Shown: piece after piece, positions 22,569 through 40,443 of the stretch
Layout: the number at the start of each line of letters is the position of its first letter
How positions within the stretch are numbered: the first letter of the stretch is position 1
Assembly: GCA_015233685.1 (NCBI GenBank)
Contig: JADFXF010000010.1
Span: 1 to 42,830 of the forward strand
Source: Nitrospirota bacterium
GTDB lineage: Bacteria > Nitrospirota > Thermodesulfovibrionia > Thermodesulfovibrionales > Magnetobacteriaceae
Direction: 5' to 3'
DNA: 42,830 nt
Position numbers and translations under genes: made by a program
Notes under the pieces: model-generated
The model's input: only the letters and a program-made list of their open reading frames with translations
The model's database searches: none
What the model was told of the DNA's origin: nothing

Positions 22569-25500
22569 ATGACAGAGAAAGCGAAGTCCTCACGGGCACT
22601 GCAGATTAATATTGCGGATTACAGCGTTAATGTGGACATTGACCCTATGTATGAACCCATACAAGAAGTCATGGCGCGCTATCATGGCCTTCAGGACGGT
22701 CTTACTGTTTATTTGAAAGAACTCTGCCACCCCTACAAGAACTGGCAGTACATCGTCAAAGAGACATGGACGTATTGCCTGGGATATTTCTATGAGCTTA
22801 GCACCCATCCAAAAGGGCCTGAGGCGGCGGTACTCTATATGAATGTTATTTTTGAGGCCATCAACTCCGCAAAAGACGAGCAGGTTCGCTCCGACGCCTT
22901 CAGCCTCTTTTATCTGTTTAGCCAGAAACTTATTAAAGACGCCAAATATATTTTTGTTGCCAATCGGGGCTTTGTAATGGCAGACGAGCTGCCAGATGAG
23001 CGGTTTATTATCATTGCTAAAAGCCATTACAGGTTAAACAGACTTGCCGGATTGTTTTATGACTGTGTTGACAGCGATTCAGAGTTCGATAAAATTAACT
23101 CACTTATGATTCATTATCTGCGGTTTACCTACTCATACTGGCTCACCGAAAAAAATCCAAAGGACTGGTTTGCCGAGGACATAGGCAAGGACATTAACCC
23201 GCTGATGTCAGATATATTGCAGCCCATCTCCCACGAGGGAATTAATGGTTACGCCTCATGTCTTGATGGTATTGTTGACAATAAAAACAAGGCGTTACGA
23301 GATAAACTTAAAGAAATGATTGACTTGCCTGGATACGGGGACATCGTCGCTCATTTTAATAAGATCCCCTCGGTTATATACCAGGGCCAATTAGATGAAT
23401 TGGACGAAAAAATAAAACATCAGTATGAGCTTATCTTCCTTTTTCATATAATGAACACCCCCGGGCTTTCCACAATTCACGAAGAAACTATCCGGGAGAT
23501 TAACAGGATAATCAAATACCTGATTAACCACGATGACTATGACAACAACAAGGCGCTGATACAAAAAACAATCAGCATACTGAAAAACACCGTAGGGCAA
23601 TACCCTGCCACAGTGTTGCGCAGTGTGCTGAACATGGGCAAGGGCGTTTACGAAAGTAATAACACCGCGCTTGTGAATTTCTTTAACCACTCGATTCTAT
23701 CTCTTGGATTTCAAACCCCGGATTTCGGGGGCATCAGCAACGATTGGCAGATAATCGGCAACTCAGCCCACATAGATAACATTCGCACATACATGGAACT
23801 CATAAGGCTCAACCCCATGTGGTCTAAAAAACTTATCTCATCTCTTATCGTAAATCTTTCCCTCTGCGGCGTTATAATCAAGGACACGGATTTATTCCCG
23901 CGCGATATTACGAATTTCTTAAATTCTGATATACGCCTGGTCTATAACCTGGTGAAGCAGCTTATGAGGCTTTACCCCGCCTATTTTAACGAATTGGGCG
24001 CGGAGGGGCAACTGCGGGATATCTCCACCAGAATGGATGAGGCCTGTAACCGCCATGACACCCTTGTCCACTTTCTCAGAAAACAGAGCCACGTGGAAAG
24101 CTCCAACAAGATTCTCTCTGTCGTGGAGGCCGCCCTTGAGTTCTGGATGACCCGTAATAAGGAGGTGCTCAGGCAGTACCTACCGCCCGATATCTATGCG
24201 GAGCAGGAAAATTCAGGTCAATATGTTGATGGCGTCCATACGGTTATTAATCAGATATTTCAACTACATGGGATACGAAATATCAGTGATTTGTTAACCC
24301 TTGGGGATGATTATTTTAGTGGCGTTGTCAATGCTATGGGGCAGGATTACGCCGCTGATGTTGAGAAGGTTGCCCTTACTATCTCCTTTTATAAACTCCT
24401 TCACCAGAAATACAGCTCCGGCTTCAGTGAAATAGACAGCGTCATTGCACAGGTTCACACCAGCGCCTTCCCAGAGCTTGGCAACCTCGTTAAGGCCATC
24501 GCAGAGCCAAACACCTACGACAAACTTGAAGGAGTACTTGAACATTTGGTAAAACTCAAAGAGCTGATTCAATCGCCAACGCAATTCGAGGTTCGTGAGG
24601 ACATTTACCGGAAACGCCATATCTCCACAGAGATACCCTCCATGTACGGCAGCTACCATGAGGTGAAATTCGACGCGCTTGGCCTTACTTTCAGGCTTGA
24701 AACCCTTGTCAATACCCTCTTTGAGGAGCTGATAGAGGGGTTTGATCTGAATTTTATAACGCGCGCCACACTCTGCAGGATTTACGATTACCTGAAACTC
24801 TACAAACAGGCCCTGATAATTGACGGCATTGCCATCAGGGAGTTCGACAGGCAACTCTATCTGCTTGGGACGGCCTTGTCGGTGAGGGGATTTACGTTTT
24901 CTCAGTTTGTCGATATATTTAAGGAATTATCACATGTTATGAGAAATATTGTAAATGATTACTTTAATAATATGCACATGGAAACCCTCAAGACTATTCT
25001 TGATATACTGCCAAAGGAAAAGCTGCTTCCCAAGTATCACGCCGAGGATGACTCCGGATTATTTAACAGGGTATCGGAGATATTTCTGAGGGACACTATT
25101 GCATTGTCGTTGGGGCTTCAGAGCCTTGATGTGTTTATAACCAGAATCCTCAGCACGCTCTGGCGTGAGGCACAGAGGATTCCCCCTGATAAGCACCACC
25201 TGCTCGTAATGTATAATCCGGAGGAGGCTGTAACCTCAATCGTTGAACCTGTTGTCGGTGTATCTACCGTTATTCACATGGGTGGCAAGGGGTTTAATCT
25301 TATGAGGATGAGGGTGCTGGGGCTGAGAGTTCCACCAGGTTTTGTGATAACTACCGATGCCTTTAAGTGCCGGGAACTATTCGATATATATGAATCTGCC
25401 GATAAGAATTTTAAAGAGCGGGTGGATGTCGAGATTGGCAAACTCGAAAAACTTACCGGCAAGGAATTTGGTAATCCTGATAACCCGCTTCTTGTCTCCG

Positions 25501-26765
25501 TAAGGAGTGGCTCTGCCATATCGCAGCCCGGTATGCTTGATTCCTATTTAAATGTGGGTATGAATGAGGCCATAGTCAGGGGGATGATAGAGGCTACAGG
25601 CAGGGGTATGAACGCAGGCAGGGAGTGGTTTGTGTGGGACTGCTACCGGCGGTTTATCCAACACTACGGCATGTCCTTCGGCCTGGACCGTGACAGCTTC
25701 GACGCCATAATGAATCTTTATAAAGACCAATACCATGTGTCTTTCAAAAAGGTTTTTACGCCGGCGCAGATGAGAGAAATAGCCATGTCCTATAAGGACT
25801 TCGTAATTGGAAAGGGGATTAACATAGAGGAAAGACCTAAAGAGCAGCTTTATATTGCCATTAGAAAGGTATTGGATTCATGGGATACAGATAAGGCTAA
25901 AAGTTACAGAAAGATAATAGGAATCTCTGACGACTGGGGTACAAGCGTGACGGTTCAACGCATGGTATACGGCAATATTGATGACAAATCAGGCTCTGGT
26001 GTACTGTTTACGCACAATCCTAAGCTCTCGGAGTATGAGCTTAAGCCGTGGGGTGATTATGGCATATGTGTCCAGGGCGACGACATCGTCTCCGGTTTGG
26101 TGCAGACACATGCCCTATCCATCAATCAGGCGAGGCGGGAAAACCGGTCTGTTGAGGATTCTCTTGAAAAACGCTTCCCGCAGGTATATGAAGAACTTGT
26201 CAAAACTGCTCGTTTCCTGATAGAACAGAGGCAGTGGAATCCCCAGGACATAGAATTCACGTTTGAGGGCGGACTTAAAGAAGATGTTTATATATTGCAG
26301 TCCAGAGATATGGAAATAAGGGAAAAACAGCATGAACATCAGTTTGAGATAACCGCAGAGTTATCAGGGCGTCTGCTTGGGCATGGCATCGGGGTAAGCG
26401 GCGGGGCGATGGCAGGGCGCGCGGTATTTACGATGAAAGACATAAGATATTACAGAGAGACAGAGCCGCAGACGCGGCTGATTCTGATAAGAAGGGACAC
26501 CGTCCCGGACGACATCAACGAGGTCTCTGCCTCAGATGGCCTTCTGACAGCGCGCGGCGGGGCAACGAGCCACGCGGCAATTGTGGCATACCGGCTGGGC
26601 AAGACATGCGTGGTTGGCTGCGTAGAGATGCTATTTTATGAAAAGGAAAAGAGATTTGTCCTGAACCAGAGGACTGTGGCCTCAGGGGATTTTATAAGCA
26701 TAGACGCCGCTGATGGGGCTGTCTATGAGGGCGAGATGAAGATATGCAAGAAGGGGATAAGATAG
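22569..26765 (+). CDS. Giant PEP-dikinase-like protein: large novel N-terminus, ATP-grasp, phosphohistidine domain, no PEP barrel
   Basis: 1398 residues. The first 890 or so are an unrecognised, mostly helical region without membrane segments. From about 900 there is a PPDK/PPS-type ATP-grasp domain: GGKGFNL near 906, VRSGSAISQPGMLDSYLN near 978-995, SGVLFTHNP near 1140, DIEFTFEGG and YILQSRD near 1225-1250. A swivelling phosphohistidine domain follows, with GGATSHAAI and the phosphorylatable H1335. The PEP/pyruvate-binding TIM barrel of true PPDK is absent, so the acceptor must be bound by the N-terminus or by a partner. A GAPDH-like gene follows 32 bp downstream. It is often auto-named pyruvate phosphate dikinase, which the domain layout does not support. 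Confidence 0.85.
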   Translation: MTEKAKSSRALQINIADYSVNVDIDPMYEPIQEVMARYHGLQDGLTVYLKELCHPYKNWQYIVKETWTYCLGYFYELSTHPKGPEAAVLYMNVIFEAINSAKDEQVRSDAFSLFYLFSQKLIKDAKYIFVANRGFVMADELPDERFIIIAKSHYRLNRLAGLFYDCVDSDSEFDKINSLMIHYLRFTYSYWLTEKNPKDWFAEDIGKDINPLMSDILQPISHEGINGYASCLDGIVDNKNKALRDKLKEMIDLPGYGDIVAHFNKIPSVIYQGQLDELDEKIKHQYELIFLFHIMNTPGLSTIHEETIREINRIIKYLINHDDYDNNKALIQKTISILKNTVGQYPATVLRSVLNMGKGVYESNNTALVNFFNHSILSLGFQTPDFGGISNDWQIIGNSAHIDNIRTYMELIRLNPMWSKKLISSLIVNLSLCGVIIKDTDLFPRDITNFLNSDIRLVYNLVKQLMRLYPAYFNELGAEGQLRDISTRMDEACNRHDTLVHFLRKQSHVESSNKILSVVEAALEFWMTRNKEVLRQYLPPDIYAEQENSGQYVDGVHTVINQIFQLHGIRNISDLLTLGDDYFSGVVNAMGQDYAADVEKVALTISFYKLLHQKYSSGFSEIDSVIAQVHTSAFPELGNLVKAIAEPNTYDKLEGVLEHLVKLKELIQSPTQFEVREDIYRKRHISTEIPSMYGSYHEVKFDALGLTFRLETLVNTLFEELIEGFDLNFITRATLCRIYDYLKLYKQALIIDGIAIREFDRQLYLLGTALSVRGFTFSQFVDIFKELSHVMRNIVNDYFNNMHMETLKTILDILPKEKLLPKYHAEDDSGLFNRVSEIFLRDTIALSLGLQSLDVFITRILSTLWREAQRIPPDKHHLLVMYNPEEAVTSIVEPVVGVSTVIHMGGKGFNLMRMRVLGLRVPPGFVITTDAFKCRELFDIYESADKNFKERVDVEIGKLEKLTGKEFGNPDNPLLVSVRSGSAISQPGMLDSYLNVGMNEAIVRGMIEATGRGMNAGREWFVWDCYRRFIQHYGMSFGLDRDSFDAIMNLYKDQYHVSFKKVFTPAQMREIAMSYKDFVIGKGINIEERPKEQLYIAIRKVLDSWDTDKAKSYRKIIGISDDWGTSVTVQRMVYGNIDDKSGSGVLFTHNPKLSEYELKPWGDYGICVQGDDIVSGLVQTHALSINQARRENRSVEDSLEKRFPQVYEELVKTARFLIEQRQWNPQDIEFTFEGGLKEDVYILQSRDMEIREKQHEHQFEITAELSGRLLGHGIGVSGGAMAGRAVFTMKDIRYYRETEPQTRLILIRRDTVPDDINEVSASDGLLTARGGATSHAAIVAYRLGKTCVVGCVEMLFYEKEKRFVLNQRTVASGDFISIDAADGAVYEGEMKICKKGIR

Positions 26766-34109: not shown

Positions 34110-34907
34110 CTATTCTCCTAATATGCCGCATATTTGCTCGGCAGATGGAATATCTTCTTTTTCCCTAAACAATCTCAATTTACGGACTTGAATAATTTTA
34201 GGCGTCCCATATTGATCATAACTAATCATGCCGAATATAGATATGCGTTGTCCAAACGCCTTAGCCGCTACATCCAAGGCCTCCGAGCGGAGGTCATCCG
34301 AAATATAACATCTGACAGGTCTATCGTCTAAAGTATCATAAATAGTAAATTTAAGGCCACCTCTTTCGGAGATAGTTTGTAGTTTCCCCTCTACCGAACC
34401 TAAACTCTTGTAACGAATACCCATAATTGTATCAATGTTAGCGGCAATACGCGTTGTTAAGACGTGGTAATCTCCATTAATAGCGATATTAATTTCAGTG
34501 AGTTCATCGCCTCGTGCACTCGAAACAGACACAAGATTCTGCAAAAGCTCTAATGCCTTATCAGTAAAATATGCCGGTCTCTCGGTTTTATTTTCTAAAT
34601 TAGTTATACCATAGTGTAACGCGTCAACTGTTTTTTCAATAACATCGATATATTCTTCTTTAACTACAGGATTATTAAGTAATAAGATACTGCCATGCTT
34701 TACAGTTACGATCCATTTTACAGGTTTCATCGTGCCGGAGACCTGCGCTGATACCTCATCAATAAAGTCATAAAATGCGCTGATGCTGTCCCTCAGCTTA
34801 TCAGACGTAATATTTTCGCCTTTTAAGGCAAGCGTAATTGTATTCTTTATGGTTTTGCCCACTATGCCGGAGGATATTCCTGATTCTGTCACTATATGTC
34901 CTGTCAT
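34110..34907 (-). CDS. Unknown 265-aa partner of the PIN-domain protein
   Basis: Start taken at the ATG complementary to 34905-34907, preceded by GGAGGGG at good spacing; the open frame extends to 35006 but the added residues look non-coding. The protein begins MTGHIVTESG, has a helical N-terminal half and a beta-rich C-terminal half (LKFTIYDTLDDRPVRCYI, RISIFGMISYDQYG). No DNA-binding domain is recognised and it is far larger than VapB-type antitoxins. Its coupling to the PIN gene makes an antitoxin, sensor or target-adaptor role possible. The base composition is visibly more AT-rich than its neighbours, suggesting transfer. Confidence 0.7.
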   Translation of the reverse strand: MTGHIVTESGISSGIVGKTIKNTITLALKGENITSDKLRDSISAFYDFIDEVSAQVSGTMKPVKWIVTVKHGSILLLNNPVVKEEYIDVIEKTVDALHYGITNLENKTERPAYFTDKALELLQNLVSVSSARGDELTEINIAINGDYHVLTTRIAANIDTIMGIRYKSLGSVEGKLQTISERGGLKFTIYDTLDDRPVRCYISDDLRSEALDVAAKAFGQRISIFGMISYDQYGTPKIIQVRKLRLFREKEDIPSAEQICGILGE

Positions 34908-34977
34908 AATCCCCTCCTCTTGAGTTGTCACACTATTTGCAGCCATGATTATAGAGTAACAATTATGGTTGGGGTTG

Positions 34978-36177
34978 TCAAGGGTGCAAGTGTCTGAAGA
35001 TGACATATTCCAGCACCGGTACGATAAGATAAAGCAGGACAGCCGGAATTATTTTTTTATACAGCCCCCATACGTCCGCCTTAAAATAGTCCCTCGTCAG
35101 AATCAGGCATACGTGTACCGGCGACAACAGCACGCCCGCGTAACCTGCCGCAAAGGCAAATGAAAACGAATGCGCGTCCAGCCCCGGCAGACTCATAAAC
35201 AGCGGAAAGGCACTCCCCACAAAGGCCAGCGTAAACCCCGTAAGAATCCCCGTCACAAACGGCAGCACGAACAGTATCGGCATAAGCGGTATATGGCGGG
35301 CTATAAAATAATTATTGATATTCACCACGGCACCTGACCTGTCAAGGGTGGTAAGAAACAGCATCACGCCTAATATAAGGAGGATAACCTCCCTGTTAAA
35401 CCCATAGCGTAATACCTCCAACATCTTCGTAAAACTGTACCGGAAATAAATCATCAGCATGAAGACCATCGCAACCAGGGCATAGTGCAACTTTACGCCG
35501 AATACGATAACCAGCACAAGCAATATAACAAAGGGCATAAAACTCAGGAGCGCCCTGTATGACCGGTTCCCGACTTTAGGAAATTGACCCCTTACGCCCT
35601 TCATGCAAAACAACAGGCCAATTGCCATCATGGCCACGGCATAGCTGAGGTTTAAGACAACCATCTTCCTCATCCCGACATGGGTAATCAGCGTGGCCAG
35701 TATGAGGCCCGGATAAAGCGGCAGGATGGACTCCCATGGATGCCTGTACCAGTAGTTGGTAAAGGCCTTGTCCTCCTGAGTTAAATCAAGTCCCTTTGCT
35801 GATTCGTCCACCATCGGACAGGAAAAATACGCCCCCCCTATTGACGGCAACATCCCGATTAACAAGGGCATCGAGATGAGTACGCATTTCTTGTTGCGTA
35901 ACACGCCCTTTACCGCTTGGGTCATCACGTTGAGTATGTTGTTCTCTCTTAAAATCATCTCAAGCATCCTGATAAACGCCAGGGCAACTGTAAGTTCAAG
36001 CGCCGACTGCGATATTATGGCAGAGTAAACCGTCGCGGCTATGGCGGCCGGTCTCATCAGATATATGGCAAAAATGATTGCGGAGGCGGCAGTCAACACG
36101 TAGCCGACGTGCCATTTCATCCTAAGAAGCACTATCATCACCACAAACACCGCGGTTATCCCGATTATGTCAAACAT
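34978..36177 (-). CDS. DUF401 membrane permease-like protein
   Basis: 399 residues and about ten membrane segments, related to the ion-transporter (IT) superfamily of anion permeases. The DUF401 signature region SMPLLIGMLPSIGGAYFSCPMVDESAK near 105-130 is present, as is the second-half repeat LAFVGSAFPLFMSLPGL. The solute is unknown. Its ATG overlaps the stop of the nucleotidyltransferase gene by one base (TGATG), so they are translationally coupled, a pairing that has no obvious functional logic. Confidence 0.82.
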   Translation of the reverse strand: MFDIIGITAVFVVMIVLLRMKWHVGYVLTAASAIIFAIYLMRPAAIAATVYSAIISQSALELTVALAFIRMLEMILRENNILNVMTQAVKGVLRNKKCVLISMPLLIGMLPSIGGAYFSCPMVDESAKGLDLTQEDKAFTNYWYRHPWESILPLYPGLILATLITHVGMRKMVVLNLSYAVAMMAIGLLFCMKGVRGQFPKVGNRSYRALLSFMPFVILLVLVIVFGVKLHYALVAMVFMLMIYFRYSFTKMLEVLRYGFNREVILLILGVMLFLTTLDRSGAVVNINNYFIARHIPLMPILFVLPFVTGILTGFTLAFVGSAFPLFMSLPGLDAHSFSFAFAAGYAGVLLSPVHVCLILTRDYFKADVWGLYKKIIPAVLLYLIVPVLEYVIFRHLHP

Positions 36178-37568
36178 CAGCTCATCCCCTTTGCATGAAG
36201 GAATTCCTCAACCAATGAGGCGGCCTTGTCCTTTGAGTCTATCACCCCCTCAAGGGTCTTTAATTCGATGGCGCCAAGGATAACGCTAAACAATGGCGAT
36301 GGAGTAAGGCCAAAAGTCTCTATTAAATCCCTGCCTGTGATAAACCTTGGGGCGGTTTTTCGGGGAGTGTATTCACACTCGTAAAAATTCAGTATTTCCC
36401 TGCATATGCTTAGGGTATCTTCATGGCCTTCTGGCTTTGCGCTTGCGTCAGCCGCCCACACGATAACAAGGGCGTAGATATTGTCTCCAACGGCGTTAAA
36501 CAGCCTGATGAGCGGTTTTTTCATTGAGTCAATGGCATGGCGCCCCGCTTGTTTGAACGCCAAAATCCTCATGTGGTGTCTTACGAGCATGGTTACGAAT
36601 TCGATCTCTTTTGCGGAGGCCTTAAATCTGCTCAATACATCGGCGGCAATCCCCGTGCCCTCGTGTTCGTGGCGATGAAACGTGCAATCTCCATCTTCTG
36701 AGAGCCGCCGCGTTGGATATTTCCCTGCGTCGTGAAGCAGTATGGAGAGTTTTATGAGGGCACCTTTGTGTGGTGACATTGCCAGCCACGCATCAAGGTT
36801 GCCGGGAGTCTGCAATGGATTGTTAATTATCTCGTCGGCAGCCTCATATGCGGCCATCGTGTGGTCAAACACGTCGAGGTGATGAAAGCGGTTTTGTTTC
36901 AGGCCCCTGAGTGGTTCAAGCTCTGGCAGCAGCACCAAAAGAAGGCCGGTCTCACACGCTGATTTTATAATTTCTGTGCAGTGGCCGGTGCTCAGGAGCA
37001 TCTTAAGCTCTGCCCACAGACGCTCGGCGGCAACCACTGAAATCAGCCCCCTTAGGGCGGAGATTGAGGTAAGTGTATTGGGTTCGATGCTAAAGCCAAG
37101 CTCCGCCGCTACCCTGAAGGCCCTCAACAGCCTGACAGGGTCTTCGGCCAGGTTATCCCTTGAAACCATCCTGATTATTTTGTTATCAATATCGGCTAGT
37201 CCGCCAGTTACATCAATTACGGTATGCGCGGGATCAAAAATCGAAACGGCAAGGGCATTGACCGTAAAATCACGGCTGCTGAGGTCGCTCCTGATGCTTC
37301 CTCCCCTTAAAGTAGTAAAATCAAATATGCAGTCCCCTTTTACGACCCTTGCGGTTGGAAATCTCTCATGCAGCATCACATATGCCCCGTTTATGGCGTC
37401 GGCAAAGCGCTTCGCATTAGAAAAAGGACTGTCGCCAAGGACAAAGTCGTAGTCCCGTATCTTCCGGTTTAAGATGAAATCCCTGACCGTGCCGCCCACC
37501 AAATAGGCCTCGCGGCATGAGCCAAGGTGCCTCATCAGGATGTCAATATAGGGTATCTTATTTATCAC
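36177..37568 (-). CDS. CCA-adding-type tRNA nucleotidyltransferase / poly(A) polymerase family with HD domain
   Basis: 463 residues. The class II nucleotidyltransferase head has the LVGGTVRD motif at 23-30 and catalytic D39 and D41 in RDYDFVL. RDFTVNALA and the AEDPVRLLRAFRVAAELGF motif follow. An HD phosphohydrolase domain (LLHDAGKYP near 277-285) forms the C-terminal half. This suits tRNA 3'-end CCA addition or repair. Poly(A) polymerase or an A-only or CC-only enzyme cannot be excluded from sequence. The start is GTG 37568, 31 bp after the acetate-kinase fusion gene. Confidence 0.88.
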   Translation of the reverse strand: MINKIPYIDILMRHLGSCREAYLVGGTVRDFILNRKIRDYDFVLGDSPFSNAKRFADAINGAYVMLHERFPTARVVKGDCIFDFTTLRGGSIRSDLSSRDFTVNALAVSIFDPAHTVIDVTGGLADIDNKIIRMVSRDNLAEDPVRLLRAFRVAAELGFSIEPNTLTSISALRGLISVVAAERLWAELKMLLSTGHCTEIIKSACETGLLLVLLPELEPLRGLKQNRFHHLDVFDHTMAAYEAADEIINNPLQTPGNLDAWLAMSPHKGALIKLSILLHDAGKYPTRRLSEDGDCTFHRHEHEGTGIAADVLSRFKASAKEIEFVTMLVRHHMRILAFKQAGRHAIDSMKKPLIRLFNAVGDNIYALVIVWAADASAKPEGHEDTLSICREILNFYECEYTPRKTAPRFITGRDLIETFGLTPSPLFSVILGAIELKTLEGVIDSKDKAASLVEEFLHAKGMS

Positions 37569-37599: not shown

Positions 37600-39921
37600 C
37601 TATATGAACGCCCTTGACTGTATTGCCGCTATGCGGGCGGTCGAGTTCTCAGTCAAACCGGCCAAGGCAGCCTCATCGGTATCAAGATGCAGCTCAAGCG
37701 TATAGTCATGGCCTACCCTGACAAAGACGTCACTGAGTATGGTGTCTGAGATGGCCACACTTACGACGTCATGGTCTCTGATACCGTACGAAAGGGCGTC
37801 TTCGGGGCTCATGTGGCAATGTCTCCGTGGGCAGATGACGCCGTTGTCAAGTTTTACTGTGCCGACAGGCCCAACAATCATAACAGAGGCCGCGCCGTCA
37901 AGGTCGCCGGAGAGCCTTACAGGGGCGTTTATGCCGAGTTTAAACTCCTCCGTGCGGCTTATCTCCACCTGCGTCTCTCTTTTGAACGGGGCAACTATCC
38001 TGACGTCTTTTATTGTGCCCATAGGGCCTGCCAAACTAAGTGTCTCCTCGGCGATAAACGACTGCGGCTGCCTGAGCGGGTGTTTCTTTGTAAGCGTCTT
38101 TCCCTCGCCAAAAAGCGCGGTGAAGTCTGCTTCGCGTAAGTGGACATGGCAGCCTGTAACATAAACGGGAATCTGTCTTGTTGTTTTCGGGGTGGGTGTT
38201 GTCTGTCGCAGGGCCAGTGCGTGGAGGGTCTCTCTGGCTATCATTCGTTCTTCGTCAGCGGCTACGACAAGGATTTTAACCGGTGCGCCTTCAGCGGAGA
38301 TTTCCTCAATATGGCCCCTCTTGACCTTTGCCCTCTCGTTTGCCTCTTTTGAGATGATAAGGCCAATATTGTCAAGGCCGTGGCATACCCGGCCGCGAAT
38401 CGCCGCCGAGTTTTCGCCGATTCCAGCCGTGAATATCAGCGCGTCAATACCGCCCAACACAGCCGCATACGCGGCAATGTATTTTTTCAGCCGGTAGCAA
38501 AACAATGACACCGCGGTCTTTGCCCTTGCGTCACCTGCGGCGGCTGCGTCAAGTATTTCTCTCATATCGTTACTAAGTCCTGTGAGGCCTTTAAGCCCAC
38601 TTTCCTTGTTCAGCAAGTTATCAATGTCCTTGACACCGAGTCCGGCGTTTAACAGATAAATCAGTACTCCTGCGTCAATATCGCCGCTTCGCGTGCCCAT
38701 GACAAGACCCTCCAAAGGGGTCATCCCCATGCTCGTGTCAACACTCGTGCCGTGGTCTATGGCGCATATGGAGTCCCCGTTGCCAAGATGGCATGATATG
38801 ATTCTCAATTCCCGCACGCTGCGCTTAAGATATGCCGCCGCCATCAATGAGACGTAATTGTGGTTCGTACCGTGAAACCCGTAACGGCGGATGTTTTCGC
38901 CTATGTGGTATTTTTCCCCAATATCGCGGGAGATGGCGTATAAGAACGCGCTCTCAGGCATGTTCTGATGAAAGGCCGTGTCAAAAACCGCTACCGCGCC
39001 CTTGTCCGGCAGGAGTTGCCGCATCGCCTCAACTCCGGCAAGGTTATAGGGATTGTGAAGCGGTGCAAGGGGGATACACTGCCTGATGCCCTCAATGACA
39101 TCGTCTGTTATCACCGCCGAGTTCTTAAACTTATCCCCGCCGTGCACTACCCTGTGCCCTATGGCGTCTATTTCGTCAAAGGCGGCGATAGCGCCAAAGG
39201 TGGAATTGGTCAGGGCGGCCTCCATGTCAGCAAAAGCCTTAGGGAAATCATGGACTTCAACTTCTCTTTTCACCTCTGATTTTTGTGATTTTATCTTGTG
39301 GTATGACGCGCTTGTGCCGATTTTCTCTATAAGGCCCTCCATAAGGGGGACGGGATTAGACGTGTCAAAGAGCGAGTATTTTAATGAAGAGCTGCCGCAG
39401 TTAATAACCAGAATCTTTGCCGGTTTAAGCACGGATGAGAAGTTTAAATCATAGGGGTCGGGGTTTTCCTGTCTTGACGCCTTGTATAGGGCGATAAGGG
39501 CCTCATCCTGAGCCTTTTGAAGCATTCTTTTATTAATCAGCGCGGCCATTTTAGCGAGTGCCGCTGTGTTTGCCACAATCACCTGGGATAATATATCGCG
39601 GTCAAGGGCAATACAGCGTGTGGATGCAACGGCAGTGACGTCGGCCACCTCCGGCTCACCCGTTATAATAGACATCTCACCGAATATATCGCCTGATTTT
39701 AATGTGGCGGTGAATAATTTACCGCCCATAGGGTCCGTAAAAAACACCTCGCCCCTGCCTTCTATGAGGACATAGAGAAACCTGCCCGGCTGCCCGCGCG
39801 ATATTATCTTTTGTCCTGAGGCGTAGTCAGCAACCGTAGAAGCCGCAAGGAGCTTATTAAGTTCACCGTCCGTAAGGTCTGAAAAATAATGGCTCGCCAT
39901 AAGAAACGCCTTTGTATCCAT
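37600..39921 (-). CDS. Triple fusion: cNMP-binding domain + acetate kinase + PduL phosphotransacylase
   Basis: 773 residues on one chain. Residues 10-130 are a cyclic-nucleotide-binding-type domain (FLYVLIEGRGEVF; FGEMSIITGEP at 80-90), but the cassette Arg is missing: PEVADVT replaces the usual P-R-S/T-A. Residues 168-565 are a complete acetate kinase (NCGSSSLK 174-181, HRVVHGG 256-262, FDTAFH 313-318, RYGFHGTNH 346-354, HLGNG 378-382, GTRSGD 409-414, GIGEN 500-504). Residues 583-735 are PduL with zinc-site CHVHL (591-595) and RRHCHM (699-704). Together they would convert acetyl-CoA to acetate with ATP formation, or the reverse. ATG 39921 has AAGGAG 9 nt upstream. It follows the flavin reductase gene by 15 bp. 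Confidence 0.93.
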   Translation of the reverse strand: MDTKAFLMASHYFSDLTDGELNKLLAASTVADYASGQKIISRGQPGRFLYVLIEGRGEVFFTDPMGGKLFTATLKSGDIFGEMSIITGEPEVADVTAVASTRCIALDRDILSQVIVANTAALAKMAALINKRMLQKAQDEALIALYKASRQENPDPYDLNFSSVLKPAKILVINCGSSSLKYSLFDTSNPVPLMEGLIEKIGTSASYHKIKSQKSEVKREVEVHDFPKAFADMEAALTNSTFGAIAAFDEIDAIGHRVVHGGDKFKNSAVITDDVIEGIRQCIPLAPLHNPYNLAGVEAMRQLLPDKGAVAVFDTAFHQNMPESAFLYAISRDIGEKYHIGENIRRYGFHGTNHNYVSLMAAAYLKRSVRELRIISCHLGNGDSICAIDHGTSVDTSMGMTPLEGLVMGTRSGDIDAGVLIYLLNAGLGVKDIDNLLNKESGLKGLTGLSNDMREILDAAAAGDARAKTAVSLFCYRLKKYIAAYAAVLGGIDALIFTAGIGENSAAIRGRVCHGLDNIGLIISKEANERAKVKRGHIEEISAEGAPVKILVVAADEERMIARETLHALALRQTTPTPKTTRQIPVYVTGCHVHLREADFTALFGEGKTLTKKHPLRQPQSFIAEETLSLAGPMGTIKDVRIVAPFKRETQVEISRTEEFKLGINAPVRLSGDLDGAASVMIVGPVGTVKLDNGVICPRRHCHMSPEDALSYGIRDHDVVSVAISDTILSDVFVRVGHDYTLELHLDTDEAALAGLTENSTARIAAIQSRAFI

Positions 39922-39936
39922 TTAGCCACACTCCTT

Positions 39937-40443
39937 CTATTTAGTAATACATTTGACTATCTCACCCACATACATCCTGTGATAATCCTTCAGCGGGTAA
40001 TTGGACTCTATTGCCGGGTCAATGAAACGGCCTGGGTCTATGTCGTGGGTGTATATCTTTCTGCACAGAAACACGAGGCGAGCCTCCTTAAAATATACCG
40101 TCTCGTCGCCCGCAATGGGGGTAAGGCCGGTTTCTGCCATCTTGTCTGTGTCTCTGCCTGAGTGCGTGCCGCAGAAAAGGAGCGTTTTCTTGTACTCCTC
40201 CGCAAAGAAAGAGAGACTGAACGTGGGGGATTTTTCCATAAAACCATACGTATGGCGGGTAGGGCGCACGACACAGGTGCAAATCTTTTTTGCCCACATG
40301 ACGCCAAACCCACCCCAGCTTGCCGTCATCGTGTTAAAAGACTCCGCAGTGCCGGCCGTAACGAGCATCCACTGGCTGCCAATGGCCTTAAAAGGATTAT
40401 CCGGCAGTTGCTCAGGGTCTGCCTCAATGAACTCATCTGACAT
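39937..40443 (-). CDS. Flavin reductase-family protein (FMN-binding split barrel)
   Basis: 168 residues, DIM6/NTAB-type flavin reductase fold. Landmarks are the N-terminal VTAGTAESFNTMTASWGGFG block (about 28-47), the strand ICTCVVRPTRHTYGFME and the SGRDTDKMAETGLTP helix. It probably reduces or simply holds FMN; close bacterial homologues are often small NAD(P)H:FMN oxidoreductases or flavoredoxin-like electron carriers. AGGAG precedes the ATG at 8 nt. It is the first gene of a minus-strand run that continues into the acetate-kinase fusion, consistent with a fermentative or redox role. Confidence 0.88.
   Translation of the reverse strand: MSDEFIEADPEQLPDNPFKAIGSQWMLVTAGTAESFNTMTASWGGFGVMWAKKICTCVVRPTRHTYGFMEKSPTFSLSFFAEEYKKTLLFCGTHSGRDTDKMAETGLTPIAGDETVYFKEARLVFLCRKIYTHDIDPGRFIDPAIESNYPLKDYHRMYVGEIVKCITK

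Follow-up and report, generated by a model that had tools for sequence, protein, structure and literature searches.

The Nitrospirota gene described here encodes a cyclic-nucleotide-binding-like (cNMP-like) sensor domain, an acetate kinase (AckA) and a PduL phosphotransacylase on one chain, and we consider it probable, at roughly 0.6 and judging from sequence comparisons, that this fused AckA-PduL enzyme was duplicated and that its copies divide the labour, with one (K) being mainly a kinase and the other (T) a phosphotransacetylase. The gene lies in a 42,830-nucleotide stretch of DNA, hereafter the window, from a 2.03 Mb genome that is 65% complete and, among named organisms, is closest to Candidatus Magnetominusculus and other magnetotactic Nitrospirota. 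Its domains and their reactions are known, in an architecture for which our literature searches on the sensor-AckA-PduL fusion found no description.

On the minus strand, positions 37600-39921 form a single uninterrupted 773-residue frame, with the plus strand there riddled with stops. Pfam places cNMP_binding at residues 33-115 (E 1.9e-17; PF00027 63.5 bits against a cut-off of 27.5), Acetate_kinase at 169-563 (E 6e-140; PF00871 467 bits) and PTAC/PduL at 586-755 (E 5.9e-58; PF06130 cut-off reached), the latter two over the full profile, which confirms the three domains in one frame reported in a first-pass annotation of this DNA. A GAAGGAG ribosome site closely precedes the ATG and directly follows the stop codon of a flavin-reductase-like gene. 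An assembly join or frameshift between the domains, raised earlier as a possible origin of the fusion, is ruled out by recurrence of the identical architecture in independent assemblies, at end-to-end identities reaching 95%. An AlphaFold2 model of the protein (mean pLDDT 81.9, pTM 0.67), in which the placement of domains relative to one another is not reliable, showed a long helix at residues 119-138 after the sensor barrel and, before AckA, a linker modelled with low confidence.

Table 1. Features of the fusion locus, its neighbours and related PduL proteins (window coordinates unless a locus is named).
Feature	Coordinates	Strand	Remarks
cNMP-AckA-PduL fusion protein, K-type paralogue, 773 aa	37600..39921	-	ORF, Pfam, ribosome site, full-length homologues
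cNMP-binding-like domain, residues 33-115	39577..39825	-	Cassette FGEMSIITGEPEVADV (residues 80-95): Gly-Glu kept, E91 replaces canonical Arg
Linker, residues 148-168	39418..39480	-	DPYDLNFSS motif; retained in orthologues without sensor and PduL
Acetate kinase domain, residues 169-563	38233..39417	-	Hallmark residues complete
PduL/PTAC domain, residues 586-755	37657..38166	-	Six of six metal ligands; R103K, Q77S, S45T, L99V, N211A (R. palustris numbering)
Flavin-reductase-like gene	39937..40443	-	Upstream; constant K-copy neighbour within genus
tRNA nucleotidyltransferase / poly(A) polymerase-like gene	36177..37568	-	Downstream; constant K-copy neighbour across genera
DUF401 membrane protein	34978..36177	-	K locus across genera
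PduL proteins with N-terminal AckA-helix stretch	L094 3291-4358; L095 3462-4520; L098 2457-3509; L100 2558-3610

Elsewhere in the window, the frame at 34110-35006 (minus strand) encodes a 298-aa protein with no Pfam match that recurs, conserved, beside DUF401 and a peptide-binding protein gene in several K loci. Separately, a 1398-aa protein (22569-26765, plus strand) has its PPDK ATP-binding and PEP-utiliser mobile domains confined to the C-terminal end, and no Pfam family matches the ~940 residues at its N-terminus.

A search for the same three-domain order in other genomes, which the first-pass annotation had proposed, returned 40 non-redundant ORFs from Nitrospirota, Fibrobacterota and Hydrogenedentota. 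The fusion was found in 18 of the 19 genomes of the window's family, the exception being 56% complete, and in 11 Fibrobacterota and four Hydrogenedentota genomes; this distribution is a lower bound, since the contig scan used exact peptide patterns and recovered only one of the 11 Fibrobacterota cases. Among the matches listed for other Nitrospirota (396 genomes sampled), acetate kinase alone was covered, and in Bacteroidota a two-domain AckA-PduL fusion without the sensor was present in 2/395 genomes. Other Nitrospirota seemed to have acetate kinases inside 1200-1300-residue frames, but in the two cases examined the kinase has its own ORF, 406 aa long in one and 440 aa in the other. At one such locus (L132 188-4087, genome G252), the 440-aa acetate kinase ORF directly adjoins a same-strand ORF of 841 aa. 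A Fibrobacterota protein (L119 991-2709) combines sensor and acetate kinase without PduL. The AckA tree places the Nitrospirota group (support 100/99) as sister to a Fibrobacterota/Hydrogenedentota group (99/98), with their union at 93/82, and neither the PduL tree nor the sensor tree conflicts with this grouping, so that a single fusion event at the origin, although not proven, is likely from the sequence relationships.

The acetate kinase domain of the window copy resembles the characterised enzymes of M. thermophila (1g99/1tuu) and T. maritima (2iir), being a full domain with ~47% identity and the hallmark residues, and differs in sitting between a cNMP-like domain and PduL. It scores 464 bits with TIGR00016 (cut-off 293), is identical to the M. 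thermophila reference at N7, R91, H123, D148, H180, N211, R241, D283, R285, G331 and E384, and keeps the acetate-site residues V93, L122, F179 and P232; the corresponding part of the model superposes on 1g99 with a TM of 0.91 by target length. Likewise, the PduL domain is a full domain with ~40% identity to R. palustris PduL (5cuo/5cup), its part of the model matches 5cuo at an rmsd of 1.0 Å (TM 0.95), and all two-metal ligands are retained (H48, H50, E109, H157, H159 and H204, corresponding to H592, H594, E653, H701, H703 and H745). However, in contrast to the R. palustris enzyme, it is a C-terminal fusion in which Lys647 takes the place of Arg103, with Gln77 replaced by Ser, Ser45 by Thr, Leu99 by Val and Asn211 by Ala. 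Arg103 is a phosphate contact reported in all PduL homologues (PMC4784909), and Arg is found at this position in 32/40 fusions, among them every T-type and single-copy sequence. The domain also falls below the cut-off of NF011652 (phosphate propanoyltransferase), at 200.3 bits against 209. The earlier description of three complete domains stands for the Pfam domains but is not supported in a functional sense for this copy, as the window PduL has lost Arg103, Gln77, Asn211 and others. Unlike PduL of microcompartments, which is marked by an N-terminal encapsulation peptide, the window PduL is an internal C-terminal domain, and in agreement with the first-pass annotation no microcompartment shell genes were found among the scanned window ORFs, the smallest excepted.

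Two paralogues are present in 6/7 genera of the window's family, and the window genome itself has a second full-length copy (G000:C50:11212-13539) with 50% identity to the first. T copies form a clade in the AckA tree (100/99); we use K for all family copies outside this clade, possibly a paraphyletic set. In every T sequence the PduL residues are canonical, but AckA is altered at Asn211, Asp283 and/or Arg285 in the nucleotide site; against known acetate kinases, the T paralogue bears N211H/D283Y/R285 changes. In the M. thermophila enzyme, N211 variants lower activity 6-200 fold and R285 variants lower kcat ~7-9 fold (PMC4390882). In K sequences it is the AckA residues that are canonical and PduL that drifts in two-copy genomes; metal ligands are missing from L017 and several contacts from L087. 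As an observation on the T locus of the window genome, the adjacent region (L099 6744-11001, G000:C50) holds candidate nitrogenase cofactor genes by eye, namely a NifB-like radical SAM gene, two PII-like genes and a ferredoxin.

Rates were compared between K and T within the same genomes, which gives equal divergence time, using four closely related two-copy genomes of the window's genus. For PduL, dN was 0.164 among K copies but 0.056 among T copies; for AckA it was 0.072 and 0.094, respectively, with similar dS, so K PduL evolves about three times faster than T PduL of the same genomes. Counting variable columns gave an odds ratio for K against T of 4.1 in PduL (p 2e-9) and 0.70 in AckA (p 0.04), with an interaction z of 5.95, which is a strong indication rather than an exact probability because columns are not fully independent. 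The threefold faster drift of the window PduL relative to its partner's, together with the altered nucleotide site of the partner AckA, argues against the earlier view of a self-contained module. In single-copy genomes (G010 and 15 Fibrobacterota/Hydrogenedentota) the PduL residues are fully kept, as are the AckA residues save for three single exceptions (L110 F179A, L018 V93A and L117 L122N). By these comparisons, the family presents a clear case of reciprocal drift of K and T after duplication.

Loss in the K lineage extends to whole domains. In the genus Magnetobacterium, K copies stop after AckA (L019, L021), and in two further genera they have neither PduL nor sensor (L022, L092, L093, L101, L102). 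These short forms retain every AckA hallmark residue and the linker between domains, which reads DPYDLNFSS in the window copy; they fall within the fusion clade of the AckA tree and, in L022, share the AckA-nucleotidyltransferase-DUF401 neighbourhood of the window gene. On these three grounds of linker, nesting and synteny we rejected AckA alone as the ancestral state in this Nitrospirota family and take the fusion to be ancestral and the short forms derived. No PduL pseudogene was detected by tblastn behind AckA in the truncated K loci. In one genus (g3), a protein of 351-356 aa carries PduL behind a stretch that hhalign matches to helices of AckA (probability 94, E 1e-7) and that is probably an AckA relic.

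The sensor domain is the fastest-evolving of the three in K and T copies alike. The first-pass annotation had noted a phosphate-binding cassette without its Arg, and this proved to be a family-wide trait: in 39/39 readable fusion sensors the cassette Gly-Glu is invariant and Arg is absent from the PKA-RIa R209 position, which is Glu91 in the window and mostly Ser, Thr or Ala in other fusions, and Asp occupies position 94 in 33/40 rows. As controls, 13 other CNB proteins encoded in Nitrospirota genomes were compared, and 11 keep the cassette Arg. Because this Arg is absent throughout, cAMP is an improbable ligand of the fusion sensors. In some Fibrobacterota and Hydrogenedentota sensors the preceding position is Arg or Lys, and this could make up for the missing residue. 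Class III cyclases occur in 19/19 family genomes, so the cell probably contains cyclic nucleotides, but binding of these by the fusion sensor in the usual way seems unlikely from its cassette. The cNMP domain of mycobacterial Pat binds cAMP. This cAMP-regulated acyltransferase (4orf), matched weakly by sequence and, separately, in a fold comparison, likewise has a cNMP domain ahead of an enzyme with a link to acetate metabolism, although the enzyme is a different one and the window sensor is without the Arg. An Arg-less cassette is able to bind nucleosides in the trypanosomatid PKA regulatory subunit, where, as in the fusion sensors, Gly-Glu is kept and the phosphate-binding Arg is absent (PMC10959531). 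However, at the PKA A202 position, where the trypanosomatid protein has its diagnostic Glu, most fusions have Ser and only L115 and L125 have Glu, and with just two such members we did not adopt a trypanosome-like nucleoside signature as the answer to the ligand.

Profile searches of the 19 family genomes found a full-strength match to canonical Pta in G012 only, its absence from the other 18 supporting the earlier pairing of AckA with PduL; weak partial Pta-profile matches in ORFs of ~345 aa resemble another family, which may be PlsX. An ADP-forming acetyl-CoA synthetase domain was searched for and not found, while the AMP-forming acetyl-CoA synthetase is present in 17/19 genomes and the CODH/acetyl-CoA synthase subunit CdhC in 15/19, including the window genome. 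From these profile results, the fused enzymes probably connect acetyl-CoA and acetate with a gain of ATP, in a direction that we infer. The same two consecutive reactions are expected of the fusion as of the separate-gene Pta-AckA pathway, but in the fusion PduL replaces Pta and is joined to AckA. The Pta-AckA pathway has been listed as a trait separating marine strain XS-1 from freshwater Nitrospirota magnetotactic bacteria (PMC10278575); Magnetominusculus and Magnetobacterium genomes encode both steps as fused, PduL-based genes, which suggests that the difference is one of gene type rather than capacity.

The architecture, its distribution, the residue states, the rates and the domain losses are observations, while activities, flux direction, sensor function and any K-T contact are what we infer from them, and most likely an ancestral protein would have converted acetyl-CoA, Pi and ADP to acetate, ATP and CoA, or the reverse, on one polypeptide, with a sensor that perhaps read a ligand other than cAMP. 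Duplication in the magnetotactic Nitrospirota family would then have been followed by a split of work between the copies, in which the K copy of the window would be mainly an acetate kinase with PduL weak or being lost, and the T copy, with its altered kinase nucleotide site, would supply phosphotransacetylase activity. Against such a division, K PduL may be active, given a dN/dS near 0.2, its metal ligands and a Lys in place of Arg103, and the T-type AckA could have switched donor without losing activity. The complete metal ligands and AckA residues, the intact modelled fold, ongoing purifying selection and single-copy relatives with both sites essentially intact are all consistent with the first-pass annotation's view of a window copy that is fully bifunctional and sensor-regulated, passing acetyl phosphate directly between two active domains. 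We regard this as unlikely, as the drift in the K clade is specific to PduL and has cost Arg103, and among K orthologues PduL lacks metal ligands in L017 and is absent altogether from L019, L021 and L022. The fast drift of K PduL could alternatively mark specialisation for another acyl-CoA rather than decay, with its kinase acting on the matching acyl phosphate; its changes do fall at CoA/phosphate-contact residues, with the metal ligands retained and dN/dS well under 1, but the unaltered AckA acetate site (V93, L122, F179, P232) and the outright loss of PduL in independent K lineages make a substrate switch quite improbable.

The sensor invites a further reading that is compatible with the division of labour, in which an ordinary acetate kinase/phosphotransacetylase pair carries it as a ligandless structural or dimerisation relic. 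Its rapid evolution in both copies, the absence of Arg from all members and its loss from several K orthologues point this way, whereas the Gly-Glu invariant in 39/39 readable members and retention across all three phyla do not, and we hold this to be a minority possibility. It is a long shot that K and T form a hetero-oligomer via their AckA domains, with acetyl phosphate from T PduL feeding the K kinase and a nucleoside or non-cyclic ligand gating the sensor. Both steps of acetate-linked ATP formation and a built-in sensor-like domain lie on one chain, and the family and its relatives provide a natural series from a two-site single gene through a duplicated pair with complementary drift to a truncated pair. 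This series makes subfunctionalisation of a bifunctional enzyme open to direct assay, and the fused genes have implications for energy metabolism among the uncultured magnetotactic Nitrospirota.
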